From positions 310,001 through 374,000 of the forward strand of contig JAUVZD010000001.1 in the NCBI GenBank assembly GCA_030602715.1: a stretch of 64,000 bases of DNA, in the 5' to 3' direction. The notes beneath the pieces are model-generated. The model had not been told where the DNA came from. It made no database searches and was given only the letters and a program-made list of their open reading frames with translations. This DNA is from Candidatus Coatesiibacteriota bacterium (GTDB lineage Bacteria; RBG-13-66-14; B26-G2; JAUVZD01). Below are positions 20,248-35,549 of the stretch, piece after piece (position 1 is the first letter of the stretch; each line of letters starts with the position of its first letter). The position numbers and the translations under genes were made by a program.

Positions 20248-20502
20248 ATGGCTCACAAAAAATCCGGCGGCTCAAGCAGAAACGGTAGAGACAGTGCCGG
20301 CCGGCGTTTGGGAATAAAATCTTCCGGCGGTCAGCTGGTGAGCGGGGGTAGTATCATCGTGCGCCAGCGAGGAACTCGCTTCAAGCCGGGAAACAACTGC
20401 GGATTGGGCAGTGACGATACCGTATTCGCCAAGGTGACCGGTCGGGTGATCTTCTCCAGCCTGAAGGGCGGGCGTAAGCTGGTCTCCGTCATCCCCGTCT
20501 GA
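20248..20502 (+). CDS. rpmA: 50S ribosomal protein L27
   Basis: 84-residue ribosomal protein at the peptidyl-transferase region. It begins [20 protein letters not shown], with the classic [13 protein letters not shown] and [24 protein letters not shown] segments. The N terminus is the short mature form without the cleavable extension found in Firmicutes, consistent with a diderm. GGAGGAAT precedes the ATG. Confidence 0.97.
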
Positions 20503-20512
20503 TTGCAAAATC

Positions 20513-21541
20513 ATGTTCGTAGATGAGGTAACCATCACCCTCAAAGCCGGAGACGGAGGACGGGGGACGGTCAGCTTCCGGCGGGAGAAATTCATCCCCC
20601 GGGGTGGTCCCGACGGCGGCGACGGCGGCCATGGTGGGAGTATCTACCTCGCTGTGGACGCTAATCTGAGCACCTTGAGCCACCTGCGAGGACAGCACCA
20701 TTTCCACGCCCAGGACGGCAAGCCCGGCGGGCGAAATAAACGTCGGGGCAAATCGGGTCAGGATGCGACTATTCTCGTGCCTGCAGGGACCCGGGTAAGG
20801 CGCAGCGTTGACGGACCCATCTTCTGCGAGCTGAATCAGGTCGGCGAGCGGGTGCTGGCGGCGAAGGGTGGAAGTGGAGGCAGGGGAAACTCTCGCTTCG
20901 CCACTTCAACCAATAGAGCACCCCGCACCTACGAGGATGGAGAAGAGGGAGAGAAGTTCACCTTCTTTCTAGAACTTCGCCTGTTGGCTCAGGTGGCATT
21001 GATCGGTCCGCCCAATGCCGGAAAATCTACCATTCTCAGAGCCATAACCAACGCCACCCCCAAGGTCAGCGGTTATCCCTTCACCACTCTCACCCCCAAT
21101 CTGGGGGTGGTGGATGTTGATGAACTTAATAGCTTCGTCATCTCCGACCTGCCCGGCATAATAAACGGCGCCCACCTGGGGGTGGGGCTGGGCGACCGCT
21201 TTCTGCGCCACATAGAACGTTCGGCGGTCCTCTGTGCGGTCATTGATGTAGGCGGGGAGGTCCCCTCCGACCCGGCGGAGGATCTGGAGACCATTATAAA
21301 AGAGCTTCACTTGCGCAACGCCCGCCTGGCGGAGCGGTTGGCTCTGGTGATTGCCAACAAGATGGACCTGCCCAACGCAGCACAACAGTTGGAGATGCTG
21401 AAGCGGAAATGTCACCTGCCGATAGTAGCGGTAAGTGCGCTCAAGCGCCGGGAGCTTAATCGGCTGGTGGGGGAGCTCTTCTCCCTGGTTTTAGAGCGAA
21501 AACAACCGACCGAGGTGTCCATAGGTGATTCAGGGCTTTAA
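20513..21541 (+). CDS. obg: GTPase Obg/CgtA
   Basis: Essential ribosome-associated GTPase in 50S assembly and stress response. The N-terminal glycine-rich Obg fold (VDEVTITLKAGDGGRGTVSFRRE..., GGPDGGDGGHGGSIYL) spans about residues 1-158. The G domain has G1 GPPNAGKST, the switch region FTTLTPNLGVV, G3 DLPG and G4 NKMD. At 342 residues it lacks the optional C-terminal OCT domain. Its 3' end overlaps the next gene by 17 bases, so the small protein downstream is translationally coupled. Confidence 0.96.
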   Translation: MFVDEVTITLKAGDGGRGTVSFRREKFIPRGGPDGGDGGHGGSIYLAVDANLSTLSHLRGQHHFHAQDGKPGGRNKRRGKSGQDATILVPAGTRVRRSVDGPIFCELNQVGERVLAAKGGSGGRGNSRFATSTNRAPRTYEDGEEGEKFTFFLELRLLAQVALIGPPNAGKSTILRAITNATPKVSGYPFTTLTPNLGVVDVDELNSFVISDLPGIINGAHLGVGLGDRFLRHIERSAVLCAVIDVGGEVPSDPAEDLETIIKELHLRNARLAERLALVIANKMDLPNAAQQLEMLKRKCHLPIVAVSALKRRELNRLVGELFSLVLERKQPTEVSIGDSGL

Positions 21542-21851
21542 CACCGAAATCACTCTGAAAGACAGCACCTACCACATCCAGACCGAACTGGTGGGCTCAC
21601 GTATCGTAAGCCTCATCTTCCTGAACGGTGCGGTCATCGCCGACAAACAGACCAAGATAGAGGAGCCCTATCATACCGAATCCCTCTCAAAAGAGGAACT
21701 GAAGGTTCTAAGGAAATCCATGCGGGAACAGCACATGAACATGATTGAACAGCTCAAGGGAGGAGAGGAACTGCCCAGAGATGCGAAACGACCGATTGAT
21801 GAGGATAAGGACCTTATCAGCAAATTTCTGGATGAGTGGGCGCAGGAATAG
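21525..21851 (+). CDS. Small protein coupled to obg, function unknown
   Basis: 108-residue soluble protein starting at GTG 21525 inside the end of obg. The first half is beta-like (NTEITLKDSTYHIQTELVGS, then RIVSLIFLNGAVIADKQT); the second half is charged and helical (LSKEELKVLRKSMREQHMNMIEQL). The pattern recalls small proteins of delta-proteobacterial and candidate-phylum genomes that carry a 'tEl.....ritt.if..G.ii..k...' strand pair, sometimes annotated near gliding or polarity genes. I cannot name a family with certainty. The 17-base overlap with obg suggests co-expression. Confidence 0.65.
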   Translation: MIQGFNTEITLKDSTYHIQTELVGSRIVSLIFLNGAVIADKQTKIEEPYHTESLSKEELKVLRKSMREQHMNMIEQLKGGEELPRDAKRPIDEDKDLISKFLDEWAQE

Positions 21852-21937
21852 AACAGTTTACAGCTGCATCCGTGGGGAACGAGAACCACACTAAAAGCAA
21901 AGCCCTGTGAACGATTTCGTCAAGCTACTTAATGTTT

Positions 21938-21967
21938 AAGCCCGCCCAAAGTGGTCGGCGCTTTTTT
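21938..21967 (+). terminator. Likely terminator after the obg operon
   Basis: An imperfect GC-rich hairpin (AAGCCCGCC against GGTCGGCGCTT) is followed by TTTTTT at 21962-21967. It lies about 90 bases after the last stop codon and just before the outer-membrane protein gene. Confidence 0.5.
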
Positions 21968-21987
21968 AAACCAAGATAGATAGCTAT

Positions 21988-23331
21988 ATGCCCCTCCGCA
22001 CAATCGTCATCACAGTTTTTTTCCTCTTTTTCATATCCACAGCCCGGGGAGATGAACCGAACCCACCCCCAACACAGGCTGAGGGTGAGGAGACCCTCAC
22101 CACCTATCCCCAACCCCCTGACGATTACGCCGGCTCCATCACCGTCAAAGAGATACGGGTGCGGGGGAACACCTACAGCGACACCTCCACCATAATCAAT
22201 TACATGACCATAGATGTGGGCGAGGTATTCGCAGACCAGGGTGGGCTGGAATCGGCTGTGGACAAGAGCCTGCGACGGCTGATGGACACTCAGTTGTTCT
22301 CCCTGATTCAAGTATATGACCTTCCCCGCAGCGACCCCTCGCAGGCGGTCATCTATGTCCTCATCCGGGAGGGCGAGCACTGGTCAATCGGTGGGGACTT
22401 CTGGTATGGCACCCTGGGACGAAAGAATCTGTTCGGAACCGGCAAGGAGGTGGGCATCACCCTGGGGTTCAACCGTCTCGGCGCATACTATCACGACCCC
22501 TATCTGTTCAACACCCCCCTCACCTACAGTCTCTCCCTCCATCACTACCGGGGAAGCAGATACAGCCTGGAGCCCGACGACGGCGAGAATGTGGTGGAGG
22601 GCGCATCCTTCTCCCTCAACCGCACCATTGCCAGATTTGATTTCGGACTCCATCTCTCCGATGACCTCACCCTCGTCGCCAGGTTCAGTGCCGAACATTA
22701 CTACCCCTATAATCAGAGCGAGGGCTTTGACTTCGCCCCTTTCTCCGCCGACACGGTGCACAACAACAACACCCTGGGCGCCTCCCTAACCCTGGACCTG
22801 CGGGACACCAACTGGAACCCCAATTCGGGTGCTCTCCTCCTTGCCAACTACGAGCGGGGCTTTCCCCGCTTGGGCGGAGACTTCTCCTACGAAAAATACG
22901 GCCTGGACGCCCGCTTCTACCTCCCCATCCCGGTAAGCAGACACACAATCATCGCCTCCCGTCTCTATATACAGAGAGCGGAAGGGGAGACGCCCTACTT
23001 CCTCCTTCCCAACATCGGCGGGCTGGGCGGCTTGCGAGCCCCCAACTACGGTCATTACACCGCTCCCACCGCACTGCTTGCCTCCCTGGAGCTACGACAA
23101 CGCCTATTCTCCCTGCCCCTCTTCGGGGTCTGGTTTGAAGGGGCTTTTTTTGTGGATGTGGGGCGAGCCTTTGAGGAGGGAGAAAAGTTTGAGGTCTCCG
23201 AACTGTTGTGGGCGGTGGGACCCAGCCTGCGCCTGCACATGTTCGCATTCGGCAGGCACAGTGCCCGTCTGGATGTGGGCTTCGGCAGGGAAGGCTACGA
23301 GCTATATCTGACCTGGGACCATGCTTTTTGA
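21988..23331 (+). CDS. Short Omp85/BamA-like outer-membrane barrel
   Basis: 447 residues with a signal peptide (TIVITVFFLFFISTARG). One POTRA-like domain follows (ITVKEIRVRGNTYSDTSTIINYMTIDVGEV ... LFSLIQVYDLPRSDPSQAVIYVLIREGE, about residues 47-130). The rest alternates hydrophobic and polar residues in amphipathic strands and ends with Phe, as outer-membrane barrels do. NIGGLGGLRAPNYG occupies the place of the VRGF/Y-like L6 motif. With a single POTRA it is smaller than BamA (five) or TamA (three), so a specialised Omp85 translocase is more likely than the housekeeping insertase. The gene for the next exported protein starts three bases downstream. Confidence 0.8.
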   Translation: MPLRTIVITVFFLFFISTARGDEPNPPPTQAEGEETLTTYPQPPDDYAGSITVKEIRVRGNTYSDTSTIINYMTIDVGEVFADQGGLESAVDKSLRRLMDTQLFSLIQVYDLPRSDPSQAVIYVLIREGEHWSIGGDFWYGTLGRKNLFGTGKEVGITLGFNRLGAYYHDPYLFNTPLTYSLSLHHYRGSRYSLEPDDGENVVEGASFSLNRTIARFDFGLHLSDDLTLVARFSAEHYYPYNQSEGFDFAPFSADTVHNNNTLGASLTLDLRDTNWNPNSGALLLANYERGFPRLGGDFSYEKYGLDARFYLPIPVSRHTIIASRLYIQRAEGETPYFLLPNIGGLGGLRAPNYGHYTAPTALLASLELRQRLFSLPLFGVWFEGAFFVDVGRAFEEGEKFEVSELLWAVGPSLRLHMFAFGRHSARLDVGFGREGYELYLTWDHAF

Positions 23332-23334
23332 GCT

Positions 23335-24075
23335 ATGAGAATAGACCGCAGACATATACTGCTCCCCTGGATTTTAGTTACCATGTTGGTAATCTTTTTG
23401 CCGACTCCGTCCGGGCTGTATGCCGACGAAGAACCACAAGGCGACGACGACAGCCCCGCTTCAGTGGAGGATGATTCAAGGAATCAGTTCTACCAGCAGG
23501 AAGCCTCCGTAAAGACCAGGCATCCTGAACACCTGCTGGAGGGTATCTTGCTTATGGAGCAAGGAAAAACCGAGGGGAACTGTGAACTGTTGAAAAAGGC
23601 GGAGGAGCTGTTCAAGTCGGCGCTTGAGGAGGACCCGGAGGACGCTTACGCAATGGCATATCTGGGCAACAGCGAGGTGCTTAGAGGGATGTTGGGCGGA
23701 TTTCTGTCCACCAAGATTCTGACCATATCCAGAGGATTCAAGCATCTGGATGAGGCAAATAAACTCTGGCCGATGAACCCCCGGATAATGCTCATGACCG
23801 CATGGCGGGGTCTGGAGGCGGACATACTCTACGGTCGCCTGTGGCAATCGGCTGACTACTTCTCTATTTTGGCGGAGGGCTTTGAGGGGGGAAGCGACGC
23901 CGGTTGGGTGAGCGCGGACATCGCTCAACAGGCATATCTGGGGCTGGGCGAGTGTCTATTGCTGTTGGGCGACCTCTACGGGGCACGCTCCTGCTTTATT
24001 ATCGCCCTGACCATAAATCCCGCCACCGAGTGGGGCGGGCGGGCTGAGGAGCTATTGGAGGATACGGAGGGGTAG
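23335..24075 (+). CDS. Exported TPR-like protein
   Basis: 246 residues with a signal peptide (ILLPWILVTMLVIFLPTPSGLYA), then an acidic linker (EEPQGDDDSPASVEDD). The mature part is helical, with TPR-like repeats: LLEGILLMEQGKTEGNCELLKKAEELFKSALEEDPEDAYAM (positions about 67-107), and QAYLGLGECLLLLGDLYGARSCFIIALTINP near the C terminus, which has the classic TPR A/B helix pattern. It begins three bases after the Omp85-like gene and so probably acts with it as a periplasmic partner. This pairing is inferred from gene order. Confidence 0.75.
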   Translation: MRIDRRHILLPWILVTMLVIFLPTPSGLYADEEPQGDDDSPASVEDDSRNQFYQQEASVKTRHPEHLLEGILLMEQGKTEGNCELLKKAEELFKSALEEDPEDAYAMAYLGNSEVLRGMLGGFLSTKILTISRGFKHLDEANKLWPMNPRIMLMTAWRGLEADILYGRLWQSADYFSILAEGFEGGSDAGWVSADIAQQAYLGLGECLLLLGDLYGARSCFIIALTINPATEWGGRAEELLEDTEG

Positions 24076-24447
24076 AGGGGGGGGATTTATATTTAGGGAA
24101 CTATGCCTTTGCCAAAACCATGGCTCGGTTTCACGGCTTTGGGTTTCTCTGTAAGCACGGCCTTTAACGCCTTTTCCAAAGGTAATAGATAAAGCGAGAG
24201 GGGCGGCGTGGACGCCGTCCGGTCGTGGTGCTTACAAGCGGGCCAGGGCGTCGTCGTATAACGGGATAACGTCGCCAGCGTTTTGGAAGGAGGGGTTTCG
24301 TTTTGGCGGAACGTCGACGCACGCGTTGTATGCGGTTATGAACTAGAGGCCGCAACAGCGTTCGTGGGGGTGAGTATCGAGATTAGGTAATCCAACGTCA
24401 AAAACAACGGCCGAAGTGAAGATCCCGGTGGGCGAACGCTAACGCCG
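24076..24447. other. Atypical non-coding stretch with inverted repeats
   Basis: About 370 bases whose base composition is unlike the neighbours (many CG dinucleotides, TAACG words). I see two 8-base inverted repeats bounding elements of similar size: GTAAGCAC at 24151-24158 with GTGCTTAC at 24228-24235, and AGCGTTCG at 24357-24364 with CGAACGCT at 24433-24440. A CGGCGT/ACGCCG palindrome lies inside the first (24205-24218). No convincing gene is present; a 29-codon frame at 24103-24192 has an AGGG upstream but no family resemblance. It forms the left part of the 24.1-25.3 kb island. Confidence 0.5.
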
Positions 24448-25017
24448 TTATTCGTCATCGAGAAAGGAGTTTGATTCTAATACACCTAAATAATACTCAA
24501 GATTACTACTTATTTTATCAAAAACCATAGGTAGAAAAGGTATAATTTCGTTAAACGAAGGTTCGTCATTCGCAGGGCCGCCGTGATAGTGCCTCAGGTA
24601 CCGGACTATATCTTCCCTTTCCTTTTCGGAAAGCCCCGTCATCGGATCCGACTCACGGTAATCGTGAAAGGTCGAAAGATGTATAAACGCGCACCCGAAT
24701 TTATAAACGTATTCAGTCCACCCGTTAAGTTGGTTTCCGAGGTCTACCATATCCCTATCCGTTATAAAACCTTTTGCGTTCAGCTTGCGCCATCGCTCGT
24801 TTCTTAAAGAAAGGGTGATTAGTTCGTTTCGGTATTTTAAATCGCGTATAGAAAGAAGGTATATAACACGTATAAATGAGTCGAGTTCTTGTCTTAGGAC
24901 TGATACTACGTTCGTTATATTACTAGATTGGTATAGTTTGTTTATCGCGTTCTTGTTATCCGTAGAACGCGTCCGAATAGCGCGGCAGAAACGTTCGAGT
25001 TCGGTTTGCTTATTCAT
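24448..25017 (-). CDS. Orphan 189-residue protein with foreign codon use
   Basis: I do not recognise this protein. It is soluble and largely helical with charged surfaces: MNKQTELERFCRAI, then VVSVLRQELDSFIRVIYLL, WTEYVYKFGCAFIHLSTFHDY and a C-terminal LPMVFDKISSNLEYYLG. Helical bundles with an R..........H-type pattern recall HEPN or abortive-infection-like proteins, but no diagnostic motif is clear. AT content and codon choice (CGT, TTA, GTT) differ strongly from neighbouring genes, so it was probably acquired laterally. GGAAAGGAAG precedes the ATG. On its coding strand an attC-like element ends about 45 bases upstream of the start, the arrangement expected for a gene cassette. Confidence 0.65.
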   Translation of the reverse strand: MNKQTELERFCRAIRTRSTDNKNAINKLYQSSNITNVVSVLRQELDSFIRVIYLLSIRDLKYRNELITLSLRNERWRKLNAKGFITDRDMVDLGNQLNGWTEYVYKFGCAFIHLSTFHDYRESDPMTGLSEKEREDIVRYLRHYHGGPANDEPSFNEIIPFLPMVFDKISSNLEYYLGVLESNSFLDDE

Positions 25018-25062
25018 TCGTCGGTTACTTCCTTTCCTTCACAGAAATGAAAACGGTCTTTC

Positions 25063-25148
25063 GGCTAACGGGATGCGGATAAAAGAATTTGCCAAAGGCA
25101 ATTCGGGCAAAAGTGCGTAACACCGTGGCCTTTTATCCACTGTTAGGC
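25063..25148 (-). repeat. attC-like imperfect inverted repeat
   Basis: An 86-base element with nested complementary arms. On the minus strand it starts GCCTAAC (25142-25148), has GGATAAAA (25131-25138), an inner hairpin TTGCC/GGCAA around AAA or its complement (25089-25101), TTTTATCC (25077-25084), and ends GTTAGCC (25063-25069). The outer ends resemble the RYYYAAC ... GTTRRRY core sites of integron attC, with one deviation in the right core. The arms are spaced by 3 and 7 unpaired bases, as attC sites with asymmetric bulges are. No integrase is in the window. Confidence 0.45.
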
Positions 25149-25254
25149 GTAGTCGCTTAATATCATCATTGTGCAAATAATTCCGTCTCCACAATTTTCA
25201 TATAATTGTTCACATAAAACATGTCAGGCTCGTGTCTGAGCGCCCGGACTCTAA

Positions 25255-25365
25255 TTACAAATTTCGGGTCGCATCGTGGAACCATCCGTCACGTTCAAGT
25301 GCTCTGATTAAGTCGTCACAGGTTTTATTCCTTAACTGGTCCCACACGTTCTTGGGAAATTTCAT
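25255..25365 (-). pseudogene. hicA: Truncated HicA toxin remnant
   Basis: A 36-codon frame starting with the ATG at 25365, which overlaps the hicB stop as ATGA. It encodes the recognisable first helix-strand part of a HicA/YcfA toxin: MKFPKNVWDQLRNKTCDDLI, then RALERDGWFHDATRNL, followed by TAA. The KT..DLI.AL..DGW pattern is diagnostic. A full HicA of this branch would continue with strands containing the catalytic His (typically a GSH- or YRH-type motif) and a C-terminal helix. None of these is found in any frame downstream. The break coincides with the start of atypical DNA leading into the attC-like element. The toxin is therefore probably dead; I infer the cause was recombination or insertion. 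Confidence 0.7.
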
Positions 25366-25640
25366 GAGACCAGTATTTCCTTGGTATATGCCACATCAAA
25401 AGTGAACTTATCTTTGAGTTCTTTATCATCCTCCACTATATATGGGATCGGTATCGGTTCTCTATGTTTAATCATAGATTTAATATAGGCAACAGCCGCC
25501 TGGGCTGCATTGTCAGCGGCTTCCTCCGGGGAGTCTCCATAAGAATGCAAACCTTTAAAAGCGGGAATAAAAGCGTAGTAGCCTACGGTATCCTCGCTGA
25601 CGAGAACCGTTATCGCGAACTTTATTATCGTCGTTTCCAT
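25362..25640 (-). CDS. hicB: HicB-family antitoxin
   Basis: 92-residue antitoxin with the partial RNase-H-like HicB fold. It starts METTIIKFAITVLVSEDTVG and contains YYAFIPAFKGLHSYGDSPEEAADNAAQAAVAYI (about residues 21-53), the standard 'y.a.iP.l.G..t.GdT.eEA..n...a' signature. The rest (IPIPYIVEDDKELKDKFTFDV) lacks a C-terminal DNA-binding HTH/RHH that many HicB proteins carry. The ATG at 25640 is six bases after AGGAGG; frames extending further upstream are ignored. It overlaps the remnant hicA by four bases in hicB-hicA order. A palindrome at its -10 suggests autoregulation. Confidence 0.85.
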   Translation of the reverse strand: METTIIKFAITVLVSEDTVGYYAFIPAFKGLHSYGDSPEEAADNAAQAAVAYIKSMIKHREPIPIPYIVEDDKELKDKFTFDVAYTKEILVS

Positions 25641-25678
25641 AGTTCGCCTCCTTTTCATACACGCCGTTTGTAAAAAAT

Positions 25679-25707
25679 GTTATAACATATAACCTAATTT
25701 ATGACAA
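25679..25707 (-). promoter_or_regulatory. hicB promoter with overlapping palindromic operator
   Basis: On the minus strand TTGTCA (25702-25707) and TATAAC (25679-25684) are 17 bases apart, each five of six to consensus. The -10 is the right half of a perfect palindrome, GTTATA and TATAAC around three bases (25679-25693). This is a typical placement for toxin-antitoxin autoregulation. Confidence 0.6.
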
Positions 25708-25740
25708 GCAACTATCTTTTCTACGAGATTCTTTTCCACC

Positions 25741-26919
25741 TCAATCCCCCCCCACCCCCTGCACCATCTCCCTCTCCTCACCGGGTAGTAATGAGAAGAC
25801 ATCCAGGGCGAAGCCCTCCTTCAGGATGCGCCCCAGTATCGCCGGTTCAAGCCGGCGGAAAGCCTGCCCCAGCTCCTGGGGGGTTTTTGTCTTGTGAGTT
25901 ATCAACACCGCGAAGCTTTCCAGCTCCAGCAGGGGCAGAGCGCCCCCACCCACCTTAGCCTTTGTGGGGATTACCGATAAAGTATAGTCATCGCCCAGTT
26001 TTTCGGCCAGCTTCTTCGCCAGCCGACCGGCGATGCGCTTCAGGTCCTGCGGTCTCCTGCTCGCAGACCGCACCATCGGCAGTTCCTCCCCCCGTCCTTC
26101 CTCTATCGCCGACAGCAATCCCCAGAGGGCTAGATAGGTCAGCTTTCCCACCCTGAGTGCACGCAGAAGATGATTCTTTCTGAGTCTGGCGATAAGCTCG
26201 GCTCTGCCCACTATTATTCCCGCCTGCGGTCCGCCGAGCAGCTTATCTCCGCTTGCCATCACCAGGTCGGCGCCGGCAGAGATCGCCTCGGCGAGGGTGG
26301 TCTCCACCCCAAGCGACTGCTCCGGAACTATCGCCCCGCTCCCCAGATCAAAGAGCAGTGGCAGGGTATGCTCCTGCGCCAGGGCTGAAAGTTCCCCCAG
26401 ACCGGGGCGCTCGTCCCAGCCCTGCACATAAAAATTGGAGCGGTGGCAGGTGAGTATCGCCGCCGTCCTCTCCCCCACCGCCCGCCGATAATCATCAACT
26501 GTGGTGTGGTTGATGCTTCCCACCGCGGTAAGCCCCGCCCCGCCGGCGGACATCACCTCCGGCAGTCGAAAGGAGCCGCCTATCTCAATGAGCTCCCCCC
26601 TGCCGACTATCACCTCCCGCCCGCTGGCCAGGGTGGACAGGACCAACAGTAAACCGGCGGCGTTATTGTTTACCACCATCCCCGCCTCGGCGCCGGTCAG
26701 CCGGCAGAGCAAACCCTCCACCTGCCGGTCGCGGTGACCCCGCTTTCCGCTCTCAAGCTCAAGCTCCAGGTCAAAATATCCCCCCGCATAATCCTCTATT
26801 GCGGAGATGGAAGCCTGCGCCAGGGGCGCCCTACCCAGATTGGTGTGGATGAAGACCCCGCTGGCGTTTATCACCCGCCGGGGGCGGACATCGGCTCTCT
26901 TCTTATCTTCCTCACCCAT
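25741..26919 (-). CDS. selA: L-seryl-tRNA(Sec) selenium transferase
   Basis: PLP enzyme that converts Ser-tRNA(Sec) to Sec-tRNA(Sec) using selenophosphate. It opens with RVINASGVFIHTNLGRAPLA, the SelA signature, followed by EAGMVVNNNAAGLLLVLSTLA, an HRSNFYVQGW segment, DLGSGAIVP and the PLP-lysine motif SGDKLLGGPQAGII (about residues 222-235). At 392 residues it is shorter than E. coli SelA (about 460) because the N-terminal tRNA-binding extension is reduced, as in many non-proteobacteria. It lies directly downstream of the tRNA-Sec gene and its hairpin. selD is not in the window. Confidence 0.94.
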   Translation of the reverse strand: MGEEDKKRADVRPRRVINASGVFIHTNLGRAPLAQASISAIEDYAGGYFDLELELESGKRGHRDRQVEGLLCRLTGAEAGMVVNNNAAGLLLVLSTLASGREVIVGRGELIEIGGSFRLPEVMSAGGAGLTAVGSINHTTVDDYRRAVGERTAAILTCHRSNFYVQGWDERPGLGELSALAQEHTLPLLFDLGSGAIVPEQSLGVETTLAEAISAGADLVMASGDKLLGGPQAGIIVGRAELIARLRKNHLLRALRVGKLTYLALWGLLSAIEEGRGEELPMVRSASRRPQDLKRIAGRLAKKLAEKLGDDYTLSVIPTKAKVGGGALPLLELESFAVLITHKTKTPQELGQAFRRLEPAILGRILKEGFALDVFSLLPGEEREMVQGVGGD

Positions 26920-26940
26920 AAAATCATCCCGCTTGAAAGA

Positions 26941-26959
26941 AGCCCCCGAGATGGGGGCT
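26941..26959 (-). terminator. Hairpin 3' of tRNA-Sec
   Basis: A perfect seven-pair stem, AGCCCCC (26941-26947) with GGGGGCT (26953-26959), followed on the minus strand by TCTTTC. It starts five bases past the encoded CCA and could terminate the tRNA transcript or set its level relative to selA. Confidence 0.55.
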
Positions 26960-26963
26960 AGGT

Positions 26964-27061
26964 TGGGGGGAGCGGGTGGGAATCGAACCCACCAAGGACC
27001 TTTTTAGGGCCCTCTGCTGGATTTGAAGTCCAGAAGGTGCACCAGTCACCTATCCACTCCC
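26964..27061 (-). tRNA. selC: tRNA-Sec (anticodon UCA)
   Basis: 98 bases including an encoded CCA. On the minus strand the eight-pair acceptor stem is GGGAGTGG with CCGCTCCC (one G-U), and the D stem is AGGTG/CACCT. The anticodon stem-loop is CTGGA-CTTCAAA-TCCAG, giving anticodon TCA. The long variable arm is AGGGCC/GGTCCT with an A-rich loop, and the T arm is GTGGG-TTCGATT-CCCAC. The 8+5 acceptor/T architecture and UCA anticodon are specific to bacterial tRNA-Sec. The discriminator base appears to be C, where G is usual. It lies between the DJ-1 lipoprotein gene and selA. Confidence 0.95.
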
Positions 27062-27072
27062 GAAAATTGAGG

Positions 27073-27798
27073 TTATTTCATCTCCTCTTTTTTTGCCTTT
27101 TGTTCGGCTAGAATCTTCTGATTCTTGAGCAGTCCGGCTACCCTCTGGGCGAAGTCCTGAGCGGCTAGGGGACCGTTGGCGGTGATGATGTTGCCGGAGA
27201 TTTTTACTTTATACGGTAATCCGGTCTTTTCACTAATTGCATAAATAGCTCCCTGCTTTTTAATCATCTCCACCGCTTCGTGGTATTTGGCGGTCTCAAA
27301 GACGGTAACCTCCACCCCGTCCAGGACGCCGGCATTTGCCAGAACCACCGGGGCAAGACAGATGGCTCCCAGAACCTTCCCCTGCTCGGCGGTCTTTTGA
27401 GCCACAGCATGGGCGTCTCCATCATTATAGAGCGATTCCACCCCCGGACCGCCGATAAATATCGCCCCGTCAAATTCGTCCATATTGACCTCGCTGAGTG
27501 CCAGGTCCGCCTCCACCTCCAGTCCGTCCAGACCGGCGCAGGTGCCTTTGGTCTTGGCAGCTACTGTAATCGTCGCTCCCAAAGATTCAAACAACTGGCG
27601 GGGAATAGCATATTCATCGTCCTTGAAGTCCTGCTGAGCGATTACCATGACGATATTTACATCGTCCAGATCTTTCTTCAGCAGGTCCTCGGCGGTTATC
27701 TCCTTCTCCTCTTCCTCGTTATCACCGTCCTTCTTGGCACAACCCAAGAGTGGAATCACCAGGAGTAGGGCTAAGGAAATTGCCAAAACCTTACGCAT
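27073..27798 (-). CDS. DJ-1/PfpI-family lipoprotein
   Basis: 241 residues. The N-terminal lipoprotein signal (LAISLALLLVIPLLGCAKK, lipobox LLGC) is followed by an acidic linker and a DJ-1/PfpI domain (about residues 48-228). The nucleophile elbow GAICLAP (Cys near residue 145) and the partner segments FDGAIFIGGPG and NIITANGPLAAQDFA are in the expected places. DJ-1 superfamily members include glyoxalases, deglycases, chaperones and peptidases. An exported, lipid-anchored form is uncommon. It lies between the CxxC microprotein and selC inside the selenocysteine locus, with 12 bases to the tRNA. A role in thiol/selenol chemistry of the envelope is inference. Confidence 0.85.
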   Translation of the reverse strand: MRKVLAISLALLLVIPLLGCAKKDGDNEEEEKEITAEDLLKKDLDDVNIVMVIAQQDFKDDEYAIPRQLFESLGATITVAAKTKGTCAGLDGLEVEADLALSEVNMDEFDGAIFIGGPGVESLYNDGDAHAVAQKTAEQGKVLGAICLAPVVLANAGVLDGVEVTVFETAKYHEAVEMIKKQGAIYAISEKTGLPYKVKISGNIITANGPLAAQDFAQRVAGLLKNQKILAEQKAKKEEMK

Positions 27799-27837
27799 AG
27801 CTCAATCCTCCTGAAATTATTAAAAGAGCTGAATTCT

Positions 27838-27987
27838 TCAATTCAAACCCATGCAGGAGAGGCACATCTTGGAGGCGTTGTTCTGGGTCTCCTGCATATC
27901 CCCCCGCAAGACGCTCTCCCGCATAAGTAGTCCGAAGCAGATGACAAGAACCACGGTAATGGCTATCCTGATTATTCTGGCAGGCAT
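27838..27987 (-). CDS. 49-residue membrane microprotein with C-terminal CxxC
   Basis: A small gene with a very strong ribosome binding site (GGGGGAGGAG just before the ATG at 27987). The N-terminal helix (IIRIAITVVLVICFGLLM, residues 5-22) would span the membrane. The remainder reads RESVLRGDMQETQNNASK and ends MCLSCMGLN. This layout, with one helix, a polar spacer and a C-terminal C-x-x-C-[IM]-G-[IL] tail, resembles what I recall as CD1871A family CXXC motif-containing proteins, small redox peptides whose homologues can carry selenocysteine and occur near selenium genes. Here both positions are Cys. It sits 39 bases upstream of the DJ-1 lipoprotein gene and 65 bases after selB, all on one strand. 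Confidence 0.7.
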   Translation of the reverse strand: MPARIIRIAITVVLVICFGLLMRESVLRGDMQETQNNASKMCLSCMGLN

Positions 27988-28052
27988 ACTCCTCCCCCCC
28001 TCTTCACATAGTTAATATTATCAATTTCAGCCATTTTTTCAAGAGAAAACCG

Positions 28053-29981
28053 TTATGAGGAAGGGAAATGGGTCCCCTTCTCCCGCCGGGTGACCCCGGT
28101 ATCGCTGAAATAGTCCAGGATGGAGGTGGCTTGGCGGCGGGAGATGGAGAGAAAATCCTTGAAGTCCGCCGCCCGGATGGAACCGTGCTCCTTTAAATAA
28201 GCGGTCAGCTTCTCTTTCACCTCGGCGAGCGATTTTGCGGTGATATACAAATTTCCGAATAAGGGTATCAGCTCCCCCACCCGACAGAGATAGTCCACCA
28301 TCTCCTCGGCGAGCGACAGGTCCTTCTCCGGGACAGTCTCTTCTATCTCACTCTTGGACAGAATCCCCACCCCCGCCCTCTCCTCCACCTCGGCGAAAGA
28401 TTTCGCCAGAGACTGGCGCACCCGCCTCTGTGCGGCGGTCCAGGCTGGACCCTCACCCTTAATTTTCGCCTTCCCGGCGCTTACAACGATGCGCCCCTCC
28501 GCCTCAAGCATGGAGAAGAGCATCTCCCCCGCATCTTTATCAACGCCCAACCTCTGGCGCAGGGTTCCCAAAGATACCCCGACGGAGAGAGAATCTTTTG
28601 CCATATATTCCTTTATCTGCCCCTCAATCTCCCCCTTCAGAACCTCTAGATTATCCCGGGAGATATACTTATCCTCTCCACATACCACCACCTTCCCCCC
28701 CTCCACCAGGACCTCCAACGCCTGCCGCACCTTCTCCTCCCTCTCCTGTGCCAGGCGAGCCAGGCGGGTCAAACCTCTGACCCCGCCTTCCTCATAGGCA
28801 TCGCTCAACACCAGCGCCAGGAATTTCCCCAGCTCCGCCCCCCGCAAAGTGCTCATCCGCTCCAGGACATGCTCCTTATATCTGCGGTGGCGTAGTGCAT
28901 AGGGGAAGACCACCCGACCCCGGCCGATTACCCGGAGGGTGGAGAAATTGCAGATTACAAATGGCTCATTACGCACCACCACCACCGGTTTCTCCAGAGT
29001 TATCTGGGCGAAGCTCCCCCCTCCGGGAGGAATTTCATCGGCATCAAGCAGGCTGACTCTGCCGAAGGAGAGCGAGGTGCCGATGAGGAAGCGCACCCTT
29101 TGGTGATGACGCAGGGGTTTGGTCGCCGATTTGGAGACCTCAAGCCACAGGTCCAGACGGCTGGTGGGGCGCAGGAAGTCGGGGACGGTGAGCGTATCTC
29201 CCCGCTCCACCGAATCCACCTCCACCCCGGCCAAGTTAAACGCCGCTCTCTGCCCGGGGAATACCTCCTCCACCTTGGTCCCGTGTACCTGCAGTGAGCG
29301 CACCCGCACCTTCCTTCCCCGGGGAAGGAGCAACAACTCCTCTCCCAGCCGATAGCGCCCACAAGCCACCGTGCCGGCGACTATGGTGCCGAAGCCGGGC
29401 AGGGTGAAGACCCGGTCTATGGGGGTGCGGAAGACTGCCTCCTCATCCCTCACTACACCGGTTCCGGAGGCGATTAGAGCTATCATCCTCTCCCGCAACT
29501 CATCCAGACCCTGACCGGTCTCAACCGAGGTGACCACCATCTCGGAATCCTCCAAGGGCGTTCCCCGAAGCAGGTCGGAGAGATCGTCAGCCACCAGGAT
29601 AGTCATCTCCTCATCAACCAGGTCCGCCTTGGTCAACACCACTATACCCCGGTCTATGCCCATGGCCAGGGCTACCTCCAGATGCTCCCGGGTCTGGGGC
29701 ATTATCCCCTCGCTTAAGTCCACGATGAGCAGGAGGAAGTCTATGCCGGAGACCCCGGCGATGGTGGTGCGCAGGAAGTCCTCGTGCCCGGGGACATCTA
29801 TTATCGCCACCTCCTCACCGCCCAGCTCCATGAAGCAGAAGCCAAGGTCCATGGTCATGCCCCTCTGCTTCTCCTCGGGGCGGGCGTCGGGGTCTCTGCC
29901 GGTCAGGGCTGTGACCAGGGCGCTCTTGCCGTGGTCAATGTGTCCGGCGGTGCCGAAGGTAAATCTCTGCACGGTAGTCAA
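28053..29981 (-). CDS. selB: Selenocysteine-specific elongation factor
   Basis: EF-Tu-like GTPase that carries Sec-tRNA(Sec) to UGA codons marked by a SECIS hairpin. The N-terminal G domain has GTAGHIDHGKSALV (residues 10-24), DVPGHEDFL (62-70) and the NKxD-type TKAD, followed by two beta-barrel domains. The C-terminal third contains winged-helix modules (for example VGVSLGTLRQRLGVD, and a final IRAADFKDFLSISRRQATSILDYFSDTGVTRR) that bind SECIS RNA. Length 642 is normal. It begins the selB-microprotein-DJ-1-selC-selA series with its own predicted promoter. Confidence 0.95.
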   Translation of the reverse strand: MTTVQRFTFGTAGHIDHGKSALVTALTGRDPDARPEEKQRGMTMDLGFCFMELGGEEVAIIDVPGHEDFLRTTIAGVSGIDFLLLIVDLSEGIMPQTREHLEVALAMGIDRGIVVLTKADLVDEEMTILVADDLSDLLRGTPLEDSEMVVTSVETGQGLDELRERMIALIASGTGVVRDEEAVFRTPIDRVFTLPGFGTIVAGTVACGRYRLGEELLLLPRGRKVRVRSLQVHGTKVEEVFPGQRAAFNLAGVEVDSVERGDTLTVPDFLRPTSRLDLWLEVSKSATKPLRHHQRVRFLIGTSLSFGRVSLLDADEIPPGGGSFAQITLEKPVVVVRNEPFVICNFSTLRVIGRGRVVFPYALRHRRYKEHVLERMSTLRGAELGKFLALVLSDAYEEGGVRGLTRLARLAQEREEKVRQALEVLVEGGKVVVCGEDKYISRDNLEVLKGEIEGQIKEYMAKDSLSVGVSLGTLRQRLGVDKDAGEMLFSMLEAEGRIVVSAGKAKIKGEGPAWTAAQRRVRQSLAKSFAEVEERAGVGILSKSEIEETVPEKDLSLAEEMVDYLCRVGELIPLFGNLYITAKSLAEVKEKLTAYLKEHGSIRAADFKDFLSISRRQATSILDYFSDTGVTRREKGTHFPSS

Positions 29982-30000
29982 AACAACATCACCGTCTGCG

Positions 30001-30029
30001 ATTCTAATAGATTGCGCGTCTCAAATCAA
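30001..30029 (-). promoter_or_regulatory. Predicted selB promoter
   Basis: On the minus strand TTGATT (30024-30029) and TAGAAT (30001-30006) with a 17-base spacer. The -10 is five of six. It lies 20 bases upstream of the selB ATG. Confidence 0.5.
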
Positions 30030-30064
30030 GGAATGATTAAGGCTTGACAGTCGCCTACAAAACA

Positions 30065-30087
30065 CGGCAGGCTTTTTGAGCCTGCCG
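30065..30087 (-). terminator. Terminator after the dnaJ-M3 operon
   Basis: A perfect nine-pair stem, CGGCAGGCT (30065-30073) with AGCCTGCCG (30079-30087), followed on the minus strand by TGTTTTG. It separates the peptidase gene from selB. Confidence 0.65.
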
Positions 30088-30121
30088 GTTGATTACAACG
30101 CAGTATTTTTTTCGGCTTCCC

Positions 30122-31618
30122 CTATGCCAGATTACCCTTAAACATCTCCATAAGGGATTCCACATCCAGCCCGTCATAGCCCAGTTCTACAGCCATCTCG
30201 TCAGCCGATTCTTTCTGACCCCGGCTCCACAGTCCCTCCATCAGAAACTCTCCCGCCTTGGGGTTGCTAAACCAATCCCGGTCATATTTCTCCCGCAGAT
30301 AATTCTCCAGCTGAGCCCAAAAGAGCCAGGCTCGCAGGTAACGAGCGGCATAAAAATCCGCATCCACATCTACAAGATAGGATTTCGGCGAATATTTGCA
30401 GAGACAGGCTTTGCTCAATAGCCTGGCATAAAGGTCGGCTCGCTCTTCACCCACCGGGCTGCCGTCGTGAAGCTGTAGCTCGTAGGAGAGCTTGGCGCTG
30501 TAACGGCGCACCATATACAGCAGATTGGTGAAGGCAAAACGAATATATTTGGAGCAGTCCTCCTGGCCCAGGTAACGGCTCAGCCACAGGGGATTCTGAG
30601 AGAGGTGTTCTATGAGGAAGGCAAAGCTCTCGGTCACCGAGTTGTCTCCCAGATAGCGATACTCCATAGGCAGACTTCCGTTGGAGTATCCAAAGTGCAG
30701 GGAGTGACCCAGCTCGTGCAGAAATGATTTATAGTCCTCCACACCCCCCTGGGGCATAATGGTGAGAACCACCCGGTTGGGAATCTCAATAGGACAGCAG
30801 AAAGCCCGGGGGCGCTTTCTGTCCCTCTGCTCCAGGTCAAAGTGGATATTGCCCTCCGCTCTCATATCTATGCCCATATCTCCCGCCCAGCGTTCTACAG
30901 CCGGAAGCATCCGCCCCTTCTGGAAGAGGTGGTCGTAAGCGGTGGCTCGGAACAGGAACAGCGAATCGTGTCTCTCAAGCTCCTCTAAGGGGATGCCCAA
31001 CACCTTGTCCACCTGGTATTTCATATTTTCCCGGAAGAGTCCCTCGGTCCCCTTCAAGAAATCGGCGGTAACCTGCTCCAACTGAGCGAGGTCCAGCCTG
31101 CCCAGGTCCTCACAGTAGCCGACATAGCTCCCATAGCCCAGCTCCCCCGCTATCCGATGACCAAACCGCCAATAATCCAGATATAAGCCGTTGTTCTTGG
31201 CGACTATCCCAAGAATCAGGTCCTCCAGCTCCCGCCTTTTTTCCCGCTCAGCGATATTGCGCACAAGCACCTGGGACATACGAAAGGAGTGGGTCTTGCC
31301 GTCAAACTCCAATGTCTGGTTGGCTTCGGTGTTGTCAATTTTGTCTTTCAGCTTACGGCTGGCGAAACCCTCCAGAAACTGACCACAAAACTCCAACAGG
31401 TAGCCCAATCTCCGCTTCTCCTCCCCGTCAGTAACCGACGATGCATACTCCCGTAGGGCGAAAAAACTCTCCATCTCAGCCAACTGCGAATACTTTGCAA
31501 AGATGGAATCGGTGTCTATGGTCTCGGAGATGCCCGCACCGGCAAGATACTCCTCCTCCAGGAGCTCCATTAGAAATTTCTCCGCCTGCTTGCAAATCTC
31601 ATCAATCTTTGCCTTCAT
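30122..31618 (-). CDS. M3-like zinc metallopeptidase (oligoendopeptidase F type)
   Basis: About 498 residues, predominantly helical. The zinc motif is HELGHSLHF (HExxH, near residue 300) preceded by VEDYKSFL. A downstream Glu ligand is supplied by VTESFAFLIEHL, in the usual M3 spacing. No signal peptide is present, so it is probably a cytoplasmic peptide-degrading enzyme. M32 carboxypeptidases share HExxH but differ in flanks; M3/oligoendopeptidase is favoured. I chose the ATG at 31618 with AGAGGAAAGGGAAG upstream, over a TTG 27 bases earlier. It is the last gene of the dnaJ operon. Confidence 0.82.
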   Translation of the reverse strand: MKAKIDEICKQAEKFLMELLEEEYLAGAGISETIDTDSIFAKYSQLAEMESFFALREYASSVTDGEEKRRLGYLLEFCGQFLEGFASRKLKDKIDNTEANQTLEFDGKTHSFRMSQVLVRNIAEREKRRELEDLILGIVAKNNGLYLDYWRFGHRIAGELGYGSYVGYCEDLGRLDLAQLEQVTADFLKGTEGLFRENMKYQVDKVLGIPLEELERHDSLFLFRATAYDHLFQKGRMLPAVERWAGDMGIDMRAEGNIHFDLEQRDRKRPRAFCCPIEIPNRVVLTIMPQGGVEDYKSFLHELGHSLHFGYSNGSLPMEYRYLGDNSVTESFAFLIEHLSQNPLWLSRYLGQEDCSKYIRFAFTNLLYMVRRYSAKLSYELQLHDGSPVGEERADLYARLLSKACLCKYSPKSYLVDVDADFYAARYLRAWLFWAQLENYLREKYDRDWFSNPKAGEFLMEGLWSRGQKESADEMAVELGYDGLDVESLMEMFKGNLA

Positions 31619-31657
31619 CTTCCCTTTCCTCTTTTGACAATCCAAACGACAACCGCC

Positions 31658-33253
31658 TCAATCAAAACCCTTTCCTTGCCAATCTATATGCTTCCAGGGC
31701 AGGTAGCTCCCCTCTTGGGGGATGACATCATCAAACTCCGCCGGCACCCGAAGCCAGGAGCCCTGGGCTACCACGCTTTCCAGATACTTGCCCGCTCTGC
31801 GGTCTCCCAGAGAGAGCAGTGTGGCGGCACGGGCTAAACGAATGCTGTCGGGGCGAAAATCATAGATATGGTTTTTCCTCAATGCGGATTCAATCCGATT
31901 CGCTTCCCGCTTCAATGTGGCCACCTGGTGGGTGGTGCGCAGAGCAAAGGGAGTGTGGGCTTTGGGCACAAATGGAGCCAAACTAATTGCCATGTCAAAC
32001 TTGGCTTTGCGGTCAATTTCAAAGACCAGGTCAAGCATCGCTTGAGCCTCTTCTGCAAGGTCCGGGGAGATGCCCAACATGAAATAGAACTTCACCGCGC
32101 TCACCCCGAGCTGATTGCAGAGCTGGACGAACTCCATTATCTGCTGGTTTGTCAACCCCTTACCTATCTCTTTGCGGGTGAGGTCGCTTCCCACCTCGGG
32201 AGCGATGGTGAAGGTCTTCTGTCCTGACTGGTGAAGCATCTCCAGGCTCTCCCCATCCATAATGTCCGCCCTGAATGAGGAGATGCCCACAGAAAAGCCC
32301 CGCTTCTTCATCTCCTTTAACAACTCTTTCAGGTGCGGGTAGTCGCCGACCGAGGTAGCCACCAGCCCGAAGCGTCCGCCCTTATCTCCCACTCCATCCA
32401 CCATAGCCAAAATATTCTCCAGACTGCGACTGCGGAAGGGAAGATACCCACACCCCGCCAGACAGAAACTACAACCACGATTGCAGCCCCTGCACAGCTC
32501 CAAGAGGACCATATTAGAAAGCTCTATGTGGGGAGTGAGCGTCTGGGTGTGATAGGGATACTTTTCCAGGTCCTTGATGTAGATTCGCTCCACAGAATCG
32601 CTGACTTCACCAATCAGAGGATGGAAGGAGGCTAGTTGCTCGCCTCGGAAGATGGACTGGTAAAGTGAGGGGACATAGACGCCGTCAAATTTCTCCAGCT
32701 CCAACAGTATATGCTTTCGCGACTGTCCCAGGCGCTGGAATTTGATGACCATATCCACCACCGAGCTGAAGACCGCCTCAGCCTCACCGATATATATCGC
32801 ATCCGCGAAATCAGCCAGCGGTTCTGGATTGGCAGACGGAGCAATCCCCCCCACAATGACCAAGGGCATGTTCTCACCCCGTTCCTCGGTATGCAGGGGG
32901 ACCCCTCCACCCTTCAACATCTCCAGAAAGTTACGATAGTCCAGCTCATAAGGGACGGTAGCCACCACCATCTTGAAATCCTTTAAGGGAATACCTTTCT
33001 CCAGGCTCCGTCCCAGCGGGCGCAATTTAGGCTCGTAGAAGAACCTTTCCAGGTAAACATCCTCATTGGAACGGAGTATAAGCTCCAGGATGTGGAAGCC
33101 CAGATTGGACATACCCGCCGAATAGGTATTGGGGAAGAGAAGGGCTATCTGGTAGCGACCCCCTCCTCTCGGCTCATAGAGATAAATTTCATCCTCAAGG
33201 ATGCGAGCCAGTCTTTCCCTGTCCTTGCGAGCAAACATAGGGAGGTTTGACAA
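31658..33253 (-). CDS. Radical SAM protein with B12-binding-like N domain (TIGR03960 type)
   Basis: 531 residues. The N-terminal part (IALLFPNTYSAGMSNLGFHILELIL..., VIVGGIAPSANPEPLADFADAIYIGEAE) has the form of a cobalamin-binding-like domain. The radical SAM core carries the 4Fe-4S motif CNRGCSFC (about residues 256-263), then LVATSVGDYPHLKELL and FTIAPEVGSDLTRKEIGKGLTNQ. This is the layout of the TIGR03960 family, which often occurs next to a TIGR03936-type partner and rng/rplU genes. No partner domain is adjacent here. The reaction is unknown. It is flanked by a TPR lipoprotein gene (26 bases) and the M3 peptidase gene on the same strand. Confidence 0.85.
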   Translation of the reverse strand: MSNLPMFARKDRERLARILEDEIYLYEPRGGGRYQIALLFPNTYSAGMSNLGFHILELILRSNEDVYLERFFYEPKLRPLGRSLEKGIPLKDFKMVVATVPYELDYRNFLEMLKGGGVPLHTEERGENMPLVIVGGIAPSANPEPLADFADAIYIGEAEAVFSSVVDMVIKFQRLGQSRKHILLELEKFDGVYVPSLYQSIFRGEQLASFHPLIGEVSDSVERIYIKDLEKYPYHTQTLTPHIELSNMVLLELCRGCNRGCSFCLAGCGYLPFRSRSLENILAMVDGVGDKGGRFGLVATSVGDYPHLKELLKEMKKRGFSVGISSFRADIMDGESLEMLHQSGQKTFTIAPEVGSDLTRKEIGKGLTNQQIMEFVQLCNQLGVSAVKFYFMLGISPDLAEEAQAMLDLVFEIDRKAKFDMAISLAPFVPKAHTPFALRTTHQVATLKREANRIESALRKNHIYDFRPDSIRLARAATLLSLGDRRAGKYLESVVAQGSWLRVPAEFDDVIPQEGSYLPWKHIDWQGKGFD

Positions 33254-33279
33254 CTATTGCCTTATCCTCCAGGGTCCCT

Positions 33280-34281
33280 TTACGGAACGGTCATTGAATA
33301 ACTGTAGAGTTGAGTATACTGGAGAATATAATCGGGATTGTCCAGGTCATGGATGAGCGCCTTCCCCAGCGCCTCCTTGGCCTTCTCATACTCCTTCTTC
33401 TCTCCGTAGCAGTAGGAGATTTCGGCAAGTATCCGACCCTTCAAGCTGGGTTCGTTGAAGTCCTTGCCCAGTCCCTCCTCAAATAACTCTATGGCTTTAT
33501 CGTAATCCCCCTGAGTTTCATAGATGACGCCGTAAGTTAGATAGCTCTCACCCCGGTTGGGGTTCTCCTTGATGATGTCATCCATGGTAGCGACAGCCAG
33601 CTCAACCTCTCCGCCACCCAGATAAAACTGGGCCAGCACCTCACCGCACAACGCCTTGCGCTCGGCGTCGGGGGCAAGCTCCACCGCCTCCATTATCTCC
33701 TCCAGCGCTTTCTCCATCTCATTCCTGGCGGCGTATATGTGAGCCATTCCCTTATGCCCTGAATAATTACTCTCATCCAGTTTCAGACATAGTTGGAACT
33801 GGGATTCCGCCAACTCCATCAAGCCTTCCACCTGAATGTAATAAATCTCCTTCTGCCAACTGGGTATGGAGGGGTCCTCAAGGGCCATCAGGTTCTCCAT
33901 AGCCACCCGCATATAGACCCAACCCACCGCATAGTTGCCCTCCACATGCTCCGGGTCCAGGGCTAACAGTTTCTCCAACGCCTCCGTAGCCCCGACCAGG
34001 TCGTCCTGTGCCACCTTATGTTTAGCCTCATTGAAGTAATGCTCGGTGAGACAATCGCCGTGCTTCTTTTCCGCTTCCTTTGCCGGTTCTGAGTCCGGGT
34101 AAAGAATTGTGATGCTCTCATATATCTCAGCCGCCTTACCTTCCAGACCCGCCTCTTTGTAAGCCTGCGCTTCTGCAAGCAGGGTGTTTATCCGGGCTTC
34201 TTCCCCCATCTGCCCACATCCAGCAAAAAAAGCCACAAGCGGGGTCAGAACCAAAAAAGTTACAAACGAAATCTTTCTCAT
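33280..34281 (-). CDS. TPR-repeat lipoprotein
   Basis: 333 residues with a lipoprotein signal (ISFVTFLVLTPLVAFFAGCG, lipobox FAGC). The mature protein consists of tandem TPR helices, for example LLAEAQAYKEAGLEGKAAEIYESITILYPDS (about 34-64), DLVGATEALEKLLALDPEH, ALEEIMEAVELAPDA and GDYDKAIELFEEGLGKD. Such proteins scaffold envelope complexes or assist outer-membrane assembly. The start overlaps the dnaJ stop by one base (TAATG), so it is translated with dnaJ. Its partner is unknown. Confidence 0.85.
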   Translation of the reverse strand: MRKISFVTFLVLTPLVAFFAGCGQMGEEARINTLLAEAQAYKEAGLEGKAAEIYESITILYPDSEPAKEAEKKHGDCLTEHYFNEAKHKVAQDDLVGATEALEKLLALDPEHVEGNYAVGWVYMRVAMENLMALEDPSIPSWQKEIYYIQVEGLMELAESQFQLCLKLDESNYSGHKGMAHIYAARNEMEKALEEIMEAVELAPDAERKALCGEVLAQFYLGGGEVELAVATMDDIIKENPNRGESYLTYGVIYETQGDYDKAIELFEEGLGKDFNEPSLKGRILAEISYCYGEKKEYEKAKEALGKALIHDLDNPDYILQYTQLYSYSMTVP

Positions 34282-35381
34282 TATTCTTTCTCCTTTTCAA
34301 GGTCTCTCAGCCTTTTATAAAGCCCTTTTTCTTCTTTTTTCACCTTTTTGGGGGTCACCACATTTACATGAACCAACAGGTCTCCCCTTCCCTTTCTCCT
34401 CATGTGGGGAAACCCCTCGCCCTTTATCCGCATGACCTCTTGGTTCTGCACTCCAGCGGGCAGGTCCAACTTTGCCTCGCCGTTGAGCGTGGGAACGCTC
34501 AATCTATCCCCCAGGACCGCCTGGGGGAAACTGACCTCCAGGTCATAGTGCAGGTCAGTTCCTACGAGCCGGAAGAGGTCGTGTTCCTGCAGATGAATGA
34601 ACACATACAGGTCTCCGGCCGGTCCACCCAGCTTGCCCACCTCTCCCTCGCCGGAAAGCCTTAAGCGCGAACCGTCGTCCACTCCCGGGGGAATGTCCAT
34701 CTTCAGGGTCCTCCTGGAGAGCAATCGCCCCTCGCCGTTACAATGGGGACAGGGGTCTTTAAGAACATAACCCGCACCAGCGCAATTCCGGCATTCGCTG
34801 GCGATGGAAAGAAACCCACGACTGCGGGCGACCATTCCACTACCTCCACAGTTGGGGCAGGGAACATAACCACCCTCCGGGTCCCCTCCCTTGGAGCCGG
34901 TGGTCCCACACTCCTGGCAGGGGATATTGCAGTGCACCTCAATCTCCACCTCCTTGCCCTCGCCAGCCTCCTCCAGGGTCAAGGTCAGGTCGTAACGCAG
35001 GTCCGCTCCTCTGGTCATCTGTGGTCCCCGGGGGCGGCGAGTGCGCCCTGTGCCGAAACCACCGAAACCGAATATGCCGTTGAGCAGGTCAGCGAAGGGA
35101 AAGTTCTCAAAGAGGTCATCAATAGTTACATGGGCGAAGCCCCGATAGCCACTGCTCTCCAGTCCTGCATGTCCGTACGCATCATATAGCTGACGCCTCT
35201 GGGGTTCGCTGAGCACCTCATAGGCTTCAGTGCAAGCCTTGAAGGTTTCCTCGGCGTTGGGGTCCCCCTTGGCTACATCCGGATGGCACTCCTTAGCCCG
35301 CCGGCGGTAGGCGGCTTTTATCTCCTCAAGCGAGGCGCTCTGAGATACCCCCAGAACTTGATAGTAATCACGTTTAGCCAT
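34281..35381 (-). CDS. dnaJ: Chaperone protein DnaJ
   Basis: Hsp40 co-chaperone that stimulates DnaK. It has an N-terminal J domain (DYYQVLGVSQSASLEEIKAAYRR, HPD in ECHPDVAKG), then a G/F region. The zinc domain has four CxxC-type repeats (CQECGTTGSKGG, CPNCGGSGMV, CRNCAGAG, CPHCNGEG), followed by a beta C-terminal substrate domain. Length 366 is normal for type I. No dnaK or grpE is adjacent. It heads an operon with the TPR lipoprotein, radical SAM and M3 peptidase genes. Confidence 0.95.
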   Translation of the reverse strand: MAKRDYYQVLGVSQSASLEEIKAAYRRRAKECHPDVAKGDPNAEETFKACTEAYEVLSEPQRRQLYDAYGHAGLESSGYRGFAHVTIDDLFENFPFADLLNGIFGFGGFGTGRTRRPRGPQMTRGADLRYDLTLTLEEAGEGKEVEIEVHCNIPCQECGTTGSKGGDPEGGYVPCPNCGGSGMVARSRGFLSIASECRNCAGAGYVLKDPCPHCNGEGRLLSRRTLKMDIPPGVDDGSRLRLSGEGEVGKLGGPAGDLYVFIHLQEHDLFRLVGTDLHYDLEVSFPQAVLGDRLSVPTLNGEAKLDLPAGVQNQEVMRIKGEGFPHMRRKGRGDLLVHVNVVTPKKVKKEEKGLYKRLRDLEKEKE

Positions 35382-35529: not shown

Positions 35530-35549
35530 ACCGTCCGTCGGATTAAGGG

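Follow-up and report, generated by a model that had tools for sequence, protein, structure and literature searches.

A 49-codon open reading frame, MPARIIRIAITVVLVICFGLLMRESVLRGDMQETQNNASKMCLSCMGLN, lies within a selenocysteine locus of the window, the 64,000-nucleotide stretch of DNA from a Candidatus Coatesiibacteriota bacterium that was analyzed here. All genes of the locus are on the minus strand, in the order selB, microprotein, DJ-1/PfpI lipoprotein, selC and selA (Table 1). Is such a short frame a gene, and does its product work with the selenocysteine genes around it or with another partner? The frame starts at the ATG at 27987 and ends at the TGA stop at 27840-27838. Its predicted product has a single membrane helix, some 19 residues long with a mean hydropathy of 2.39, and the C-terminal tail CLSCMGLN, in agreement with the first-pass annotation of this DNA. 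The ribosome binding site, described there as near perfect, does contain a full GGAGG match, but its spacer to the ATG is just 3 nt.

Table 1. Features of the selenocysteine locus in the window.
Feature	Position	Strand	Basis
selB, Sec-specific elongation factor, 65 nt upstream of microprotein	28053..29981	minus	TIGR00475 320.9 bits, cut-off 242
Possible sigma-70-like promoter with extended TG, 5' of microprotein	28015..28042	minus	consensus match only
Shine-Dalgarno match GGAGGAG of microprotein	27989..27995	minus	sequence
CxxC membrane microprotein, cysteine form	27838..27987	minus	49 aa; leave-one-out profile match
Microprotein CxxC codons	Cys42 at 27864-27862; Cys45 at 27855-27853	minus	
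DJ-1/PfpI-family lipoprotein, 39 nt downstream of microprotein	27073..27798	minus	PF01965 2.3e-29; lipobox LLGC
selC, tRNA-Sec	26968..27061	minus	RF01852 71.3 bits; ARAGORN tca anticodon
selA, Sec synthase	25741..26919	minus	ORF; named from sequence and place; layout shared with G001

The region is rich in frames of comparable size, 130 ORFs of at least 40 aa overlapping positions 20000-36000 of the window. The microprotein ORF was therefore tested by homology, as its size alone is not significant. We built a profile from 22 relatives, leaving the window microprotein out, and searched it against the 1439 ORFs of the window. The microprotein ranked first, with 41.1 bits and an E value of 9.7e-12, the next best ORF having an E value of 1.3. 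It still scored 35.2 bits when the three nearest 'CMG' relatives were also removed from the profile. The opposite-strand ORF at 27851-28015 (plus) had no comparable support in this search of the window ORFs. By homology, then, the ORF is a genuine gene, and its position between selB and a DJ-1 lipoprotein gene, as first proposed, was borne out by the matches of its neighbors to TIGR00475 and PF01965.

Direct searches of NCBIfam and Pfam with the microprotein gave nothing above noise, and NF040920 (CD1871A_fam; curated cut-off 32 bits), the family named in the first-pass annotation, was not matched even at an E value of 10. A whole-genome search detected relatives in other lineages, including L003, L005 and L002, which scored 47.1, 29.6 and 18.7 bits, respectively, to NF040920; none were found in viral contigs. 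Other candidates, L004 ('1 TGA') and L006-L010, were discarded as chance other-frame matches or larger unrelated ORFs. In the alignment that includes the window microprotein, 19 of 23 members matched NF040920, with a best E value of 2.5e-18. Homologues with the CxxC tail were thus found, and both tail cysteines and the following glycine are invariant across the aligned set. The window microprotein has the one helix and C-terminal CxxC that make up the small-protein criterion of CD1871A_fam, and it shares the size of that family and its CxxC-[IM]-G tail. It differs in ending with CMGLN instead of CIGIG and in the absence of an NF040920 score. As the relatives match NF040920 but the window copy does not, the microprotein is, judged by its sequence, a diverged relative of CD1871A_fam and no formal member by curated score. 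A link to the C termini of NiFeSe hydrogenases, which share CxxC/UxxC, was set aside; the layout differs, and no hydrogenase match was obtained.

It had also been suggested that relatives of the microprotein may use selenocysteine, and this holds. We searched 290 genomes with read-through for microproteins with an internal TGA. The first-Cys codon was TGA in 17 genomes, the read-through translation aligning the TGA precisely with the leading Cys of the CxxC motif. The carriers comprised 6/6 genomes in the phylum of G147, 9/10 in the phylum of G121, G117 and G001, the last having the TGA form at the same locus as the cysteine form of the window. A DNA pattern covering only the TGA through the stop codon was also run against 84,980 named genomes. 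This yielded 49 matches, against about 6 expected, as estimated from the information content of the pattern. The family helix was present upstream of 41 of them, with profile scores of 33 to 62 bits; the other 8, which either lack the family upstream or are cut short, were rejected as chance or truncated matches. The 41 loci include Ca. Coatesbacteria, Zixiibacteriota, Eisenbacteria, Deferrisomatales and many records titled Deltaproteobacteria, and they overlap in part with the 17 genomes, so that the two counts are not additive. Neither TAA nor TAG was ever seen at the first-Cys codon in the 17 genomes or the 41 loci, and in both sets the reading frame after the TGA is conserved as LSCIGVG followed by a stop. 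One assembly, that of L081, contains a second UGA tail with a hairpin and a polyferredoxin (353 bits) at L116, 3194-3220 (minus). This second tail has only 15 open codons upstream and may reflect a frameshift or a duplicate created by misassembly.

The tRNA-Sec family search also matches other tRNAs and was counted only at 58 bits or more. Selenocysteine machinery was found in 17/17 TGA genomes: selC at or above this score in 16, and selB only, over its cut-off, in G290. Genomes with the cysteine form had selC in 14/27 cases, in contrast to the 17/17 TGA genomes having selC or selB (Fisher p 4.7e-4). The 13 cysteine-form genomes without recognizable tRNA-Sec indicate that the family works without selenocysteine.

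We aligned 40 distinct sequences from the TGA onward, which required no gaps, and found a SECIS-like hairpin with a six-pair stem and a GGGU-type loop. The hairpin starts in the G-[IV]-G codons and ends 3' of the stop, in noncoding DNA. Pairing was observed in 96.3% of cells, compared with 38 to 65% when the partner strand was slid. In 13 cells both sides were altered, a level of compensation reached in 0/500 shuffles, and one pair occurs as GC, GU, AU, CG and UA. At the same positions in 26 cysteine-form genomes, 55% of cells were paired, which is the level of the slid controls. A distinct hairpin of 12 pairs is present at the UGA microprotein of G001 (z -2.87). UGA at the Cys codon, the SECIS-like hairpin and the presence of the machinery together point to the UGA relatives being selenocysteine forms of the family. 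For the window microprotein, no hairpin beyond chance was found (z -0.14), and the codon for Cys42, which aligns with the TGA/Sec of relatives, is TGC. By its sequence, it is itself a cysteine form without SECIS, not a selenoprotein. In G082 (L038, near position 1600, reverse strand), TGC occupies the Sec position with the SECIS-type hairpin fully intact, pointing to a switch from Sec to Cys in the recent past. As read from the aligned codons, Sec and Cys are exchanged within the family at the position of Cys42.

Conservation of the microprotein beside selB and selC, on which the first-pass annotation had built its functional proposal, did not hold up. Comparison of gene order revealed the same layout in G001, the only other genome of the window's order among the genomes compared, which has a UGA microprotein, two DJ-1 lipoprotein genes, selC and selA. 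Linkage to selC was seen elsewhere only in a Ca. Coatesbacteria genome, separately, where selC is directly upstream, but most loci are not near selC. On gene order, what the family has conserved is not adjacency to selB/selC.

The constant neighbor was of another kind. Next to the first three relatives found, we identified a membrane protein resembling NapH, in which Fer4_5 and 4Fe-4S ferredoxin domains are combined. A profile search located this polyferredoxin directly downstream on the same strand at 34/39 Sec loci with room to see it and at 22/26 Cys loci. In the window genome, the microprotein is not adjacent to the polyferredoxin gene, the two being on contigs C3 and C4, respectively (G000:C4:256894-257769, 311 bits). 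In a check designed for unlinked or contig-end microproteins, the polyferredoxin was present elsewhere in the genome in 10/10 cases; it was found in 0/33 genomes without the microprotein. By these profile searches, the NapH-like polyferredoxin, and not selB/selC, is the near-constant partner of the microprotein. A tree of the polyferredoxins groups the window genome with G001 as its sister (98/91), a result to be read with caution as both are long branches. On this tree, no fewer than 7 changes are required to explain the Sec/Cys state of the partner microprotein.

The partner shares with NapH/MauN-type ferredoxins (TIGR02163, PF12801) a four-helix scaffold, inward CxxxCP motifs and a C-terminal 2[4Fe-4S] domain. 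Its scores of 60 to 78 bits are far below the NapH cut-off of 213 bits, and it differs from these proteins by an additional predicted-outward CxPxLNCYxCPx5C motif, the lack of an FMN-domain match and its microprotein companion. Its invariant cysteines belong to the two inward motifs, to the ferredoxin domain and to loops placed outside by hydropathy and charge. Those predicted to face outward are C37, C43, C46, C53 and C142, in the motifs CxPxLNCYxCPx5C and KLCPxG. The AlphaFold2 model of the protein was poor (mean pLDDT 55).

The polyferredoxin gene of the window genome is grouped with genes for an UshA-like 5'-nucleotidase and a SelA-like protein, with glyA lying farther along, and the same order is found in G001. 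The UshA-like copy of the window genome is without an in-frame UGA. The SelA-like protein (L019:5958-7157, minus, on G000:C4) reaches 56 bits to TIGR00474, whose cut-off is 268; its G001 counterpart, L139:1861-3114, is named from sequence and place only. The window genome thus has a second, diverged SelA close to the serine hydroxymethyltransferase gene glyA.

In other lineages, extracytoplasmic thiol and sulfur proteins make up most of the neighbors of the microprotein. Upstream of it in G147-type loci are genes for a DUF1573/OS_HP2-like protein, a rhodanese, MauE and an UshA-like protein with an in-frame PCG-UGA, and the surroundings in G121 include ResA/TlpA-like proteins. The UshA-like protein (NF041198) is a known selenoprotein whose gene, in G147-type loci, immediately precedes that of the UGA microprotein; the protein is an unrelated metallophosphatase, however, and in the window genome and G001 its gene follows that of the polyferredoxin. 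Loci L056 (2620-6930), L082, L104 and L109 contain DUF1573/OS_HP2, LYCAU-type rhodanese, MauE, the UshA-like protein with PCG-UGA, the UGA microprotein and the polyferredoxin. These four loci bring together relatives of selenoprotein families.

The microprotein is probably part of a device moving reducing power across the cell membrane. We put at roughly two in three the probability that it is an extracytoplasmic thiol/selenol relay subunit of a polyferredoxin Fe-S conduit, as the Cys form of a Cys/Sec family; the envelope redox role first proposed for it is the best reading. A role in carrying electrons across the membrane is attributed to NapH-like proteins (PMC8238504). Ferredoxin-level electrons would enter the cytoplasmic [4Fe-4S] domain of the polyferredoxin and cross the membrane via its cysteine motifs to the outward Cys-rich site. 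That site would reduce a disulfide or selenylsulfide of the microprotein tail, which may then pass electrons on to extracytoplasmic thiol proteins. Candidate acceptors are the rhodanese, MauE, UshA-like and ResA/TlpA-like neighbors in other lineages and the DJ-1 lipoprotein or the UshA-like protein in the window genome. We infer the direction of electron flow, the acceptors and the thiol-relay chemistry, as well as the N-in/C-out topology, the latter from an N-terminal positive charge in 22/23 members. The proposed job, providing reducing power to extracytoplasmic thiols, is that of the DsbD/CcdA conduits, to which no sequence relation was seen; here Fe-S clusters and a separate Cys/Sec peptide would replace membrane-embedded Cys pairs.

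Two readings would dispose of the family altogether. Given the leave-one-out match, the intact CxxC-G tail with a ribosome binding site in place, the syntenic homologue in G001 and the matching polyferredoxin encoded in the window genome, it is hardly conceivable that the window ORF arose by chance or is a decayed gene, even though it is not called by NF040920 and its relatives are too distant for dN/dS to be assessed. The TGA forms might instead be ordinary genes ending at the TGA, with an incidental CIGIG downstream, as the support for selenocysteine is at the sequence level. This is very improbable in view of the frame conserved past the TGA in both sets, the covarying hairpin, the sole use of TGA and its occurrence solely in Sec-coding genomes.

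More weight must be given to readings that accept the gene and change its function. The CxxC/UxxC tail might be a ligand, cap or assembly helper of an outward Fe-S cluster of the polyferredoxin, without dithiol/disulfide cycling. The near-obligatory partnership would fit this, and the five invariant predicted-outward cysteines suffice for a cluster able to accept an outside ligand, so that the outward site could take up the microprotein rather than reduce it. The relay reading is also weakened by the window microprotein being diverged and unlinked from its polyferredoxin. We nevertheless consider the cluster-ligand role unlikely, because Sec is found at one of the two tail positions only and is exchanged repeatedly with Cys. 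Sec at a single position with repeated Cys exchange is the usual redox-catalytic signature in known selenoproteins. UxxC has been noted as a redox motif (PMC13188914). Alternatively, the microprotein could serve selenium or selenocysteine metabolism, through uptake or reduction for SelD/SelA, which would explain its selB/selC/selA neighborhood. The shared locus in G001, selC directly upstream in Ca. Coatesbacteria and the SelA-like protein after the polyferredoxin-UshA genes in both members of the order (the G001 copy by sequence and place) are in keeping with this. It is quite improbable all the same, as nearly half of the cysteine-form genomes (13/27) have no recognizable tRNA-Sec and as selC is distant from most microprotein loci.

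Returning to the thiol/selenol relay, such a system, if true, would be an Fe-S counterpart of DsbD/CcdA, passing electrons from ferredoxin to extracellular thiols. Its constant polyferredoxin partner points to a route by which anaerobes might deliver reducing power outside the cell, unnamed in current annotation. A 2026 catalogue lists 119 prokaryotic selenoprotein families and subfamilies, GenBank-annotated ones included; CD1871A/NF040920 or a comparable small membrane CxxC protein is absent from it (PMC13188914 Table 1). Neither name was found in the literature searched, and an earlier mention is possible in the two new-selenoprotein papers of Haft, so that we call the Sec form uncatalogued, not certainly unknown. 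The chances are about even that this is an uncatalogued selenoprotein family of some 45 residues with its SECIS across the real stop, forming the dedicated redox tail of a widespread Fe-S conduit in which sulfur and selenium have been swapped repeatedly. Because UGA is taken for a stop, genes for selenoproteins go unnoticed, and one of 45 residues with UGA eight codons from its end is an extreme case. Dozens of sequenced genomes have the UGA microprotein, and ordinary gene calling would stop at the UGA or omit the gene. Repeated Sec/Cys exchange in a small part of a defined pair would make the question 'why selenium?' directly testable.

The DJ-1 lipoprotein of the window has a nucleophile-elbow cysteine, Cys147, and an extra cysteine, Cys87. 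One of the two G001 DJ-1/PfpI lipoproteins is without the nucleophile-elbow Cys. The extra Cys is conserved in the DJ-1/PfpI lipoproteins encoded between the microprotein and selC, both in G001 (L054:1288-2674) and in the window.
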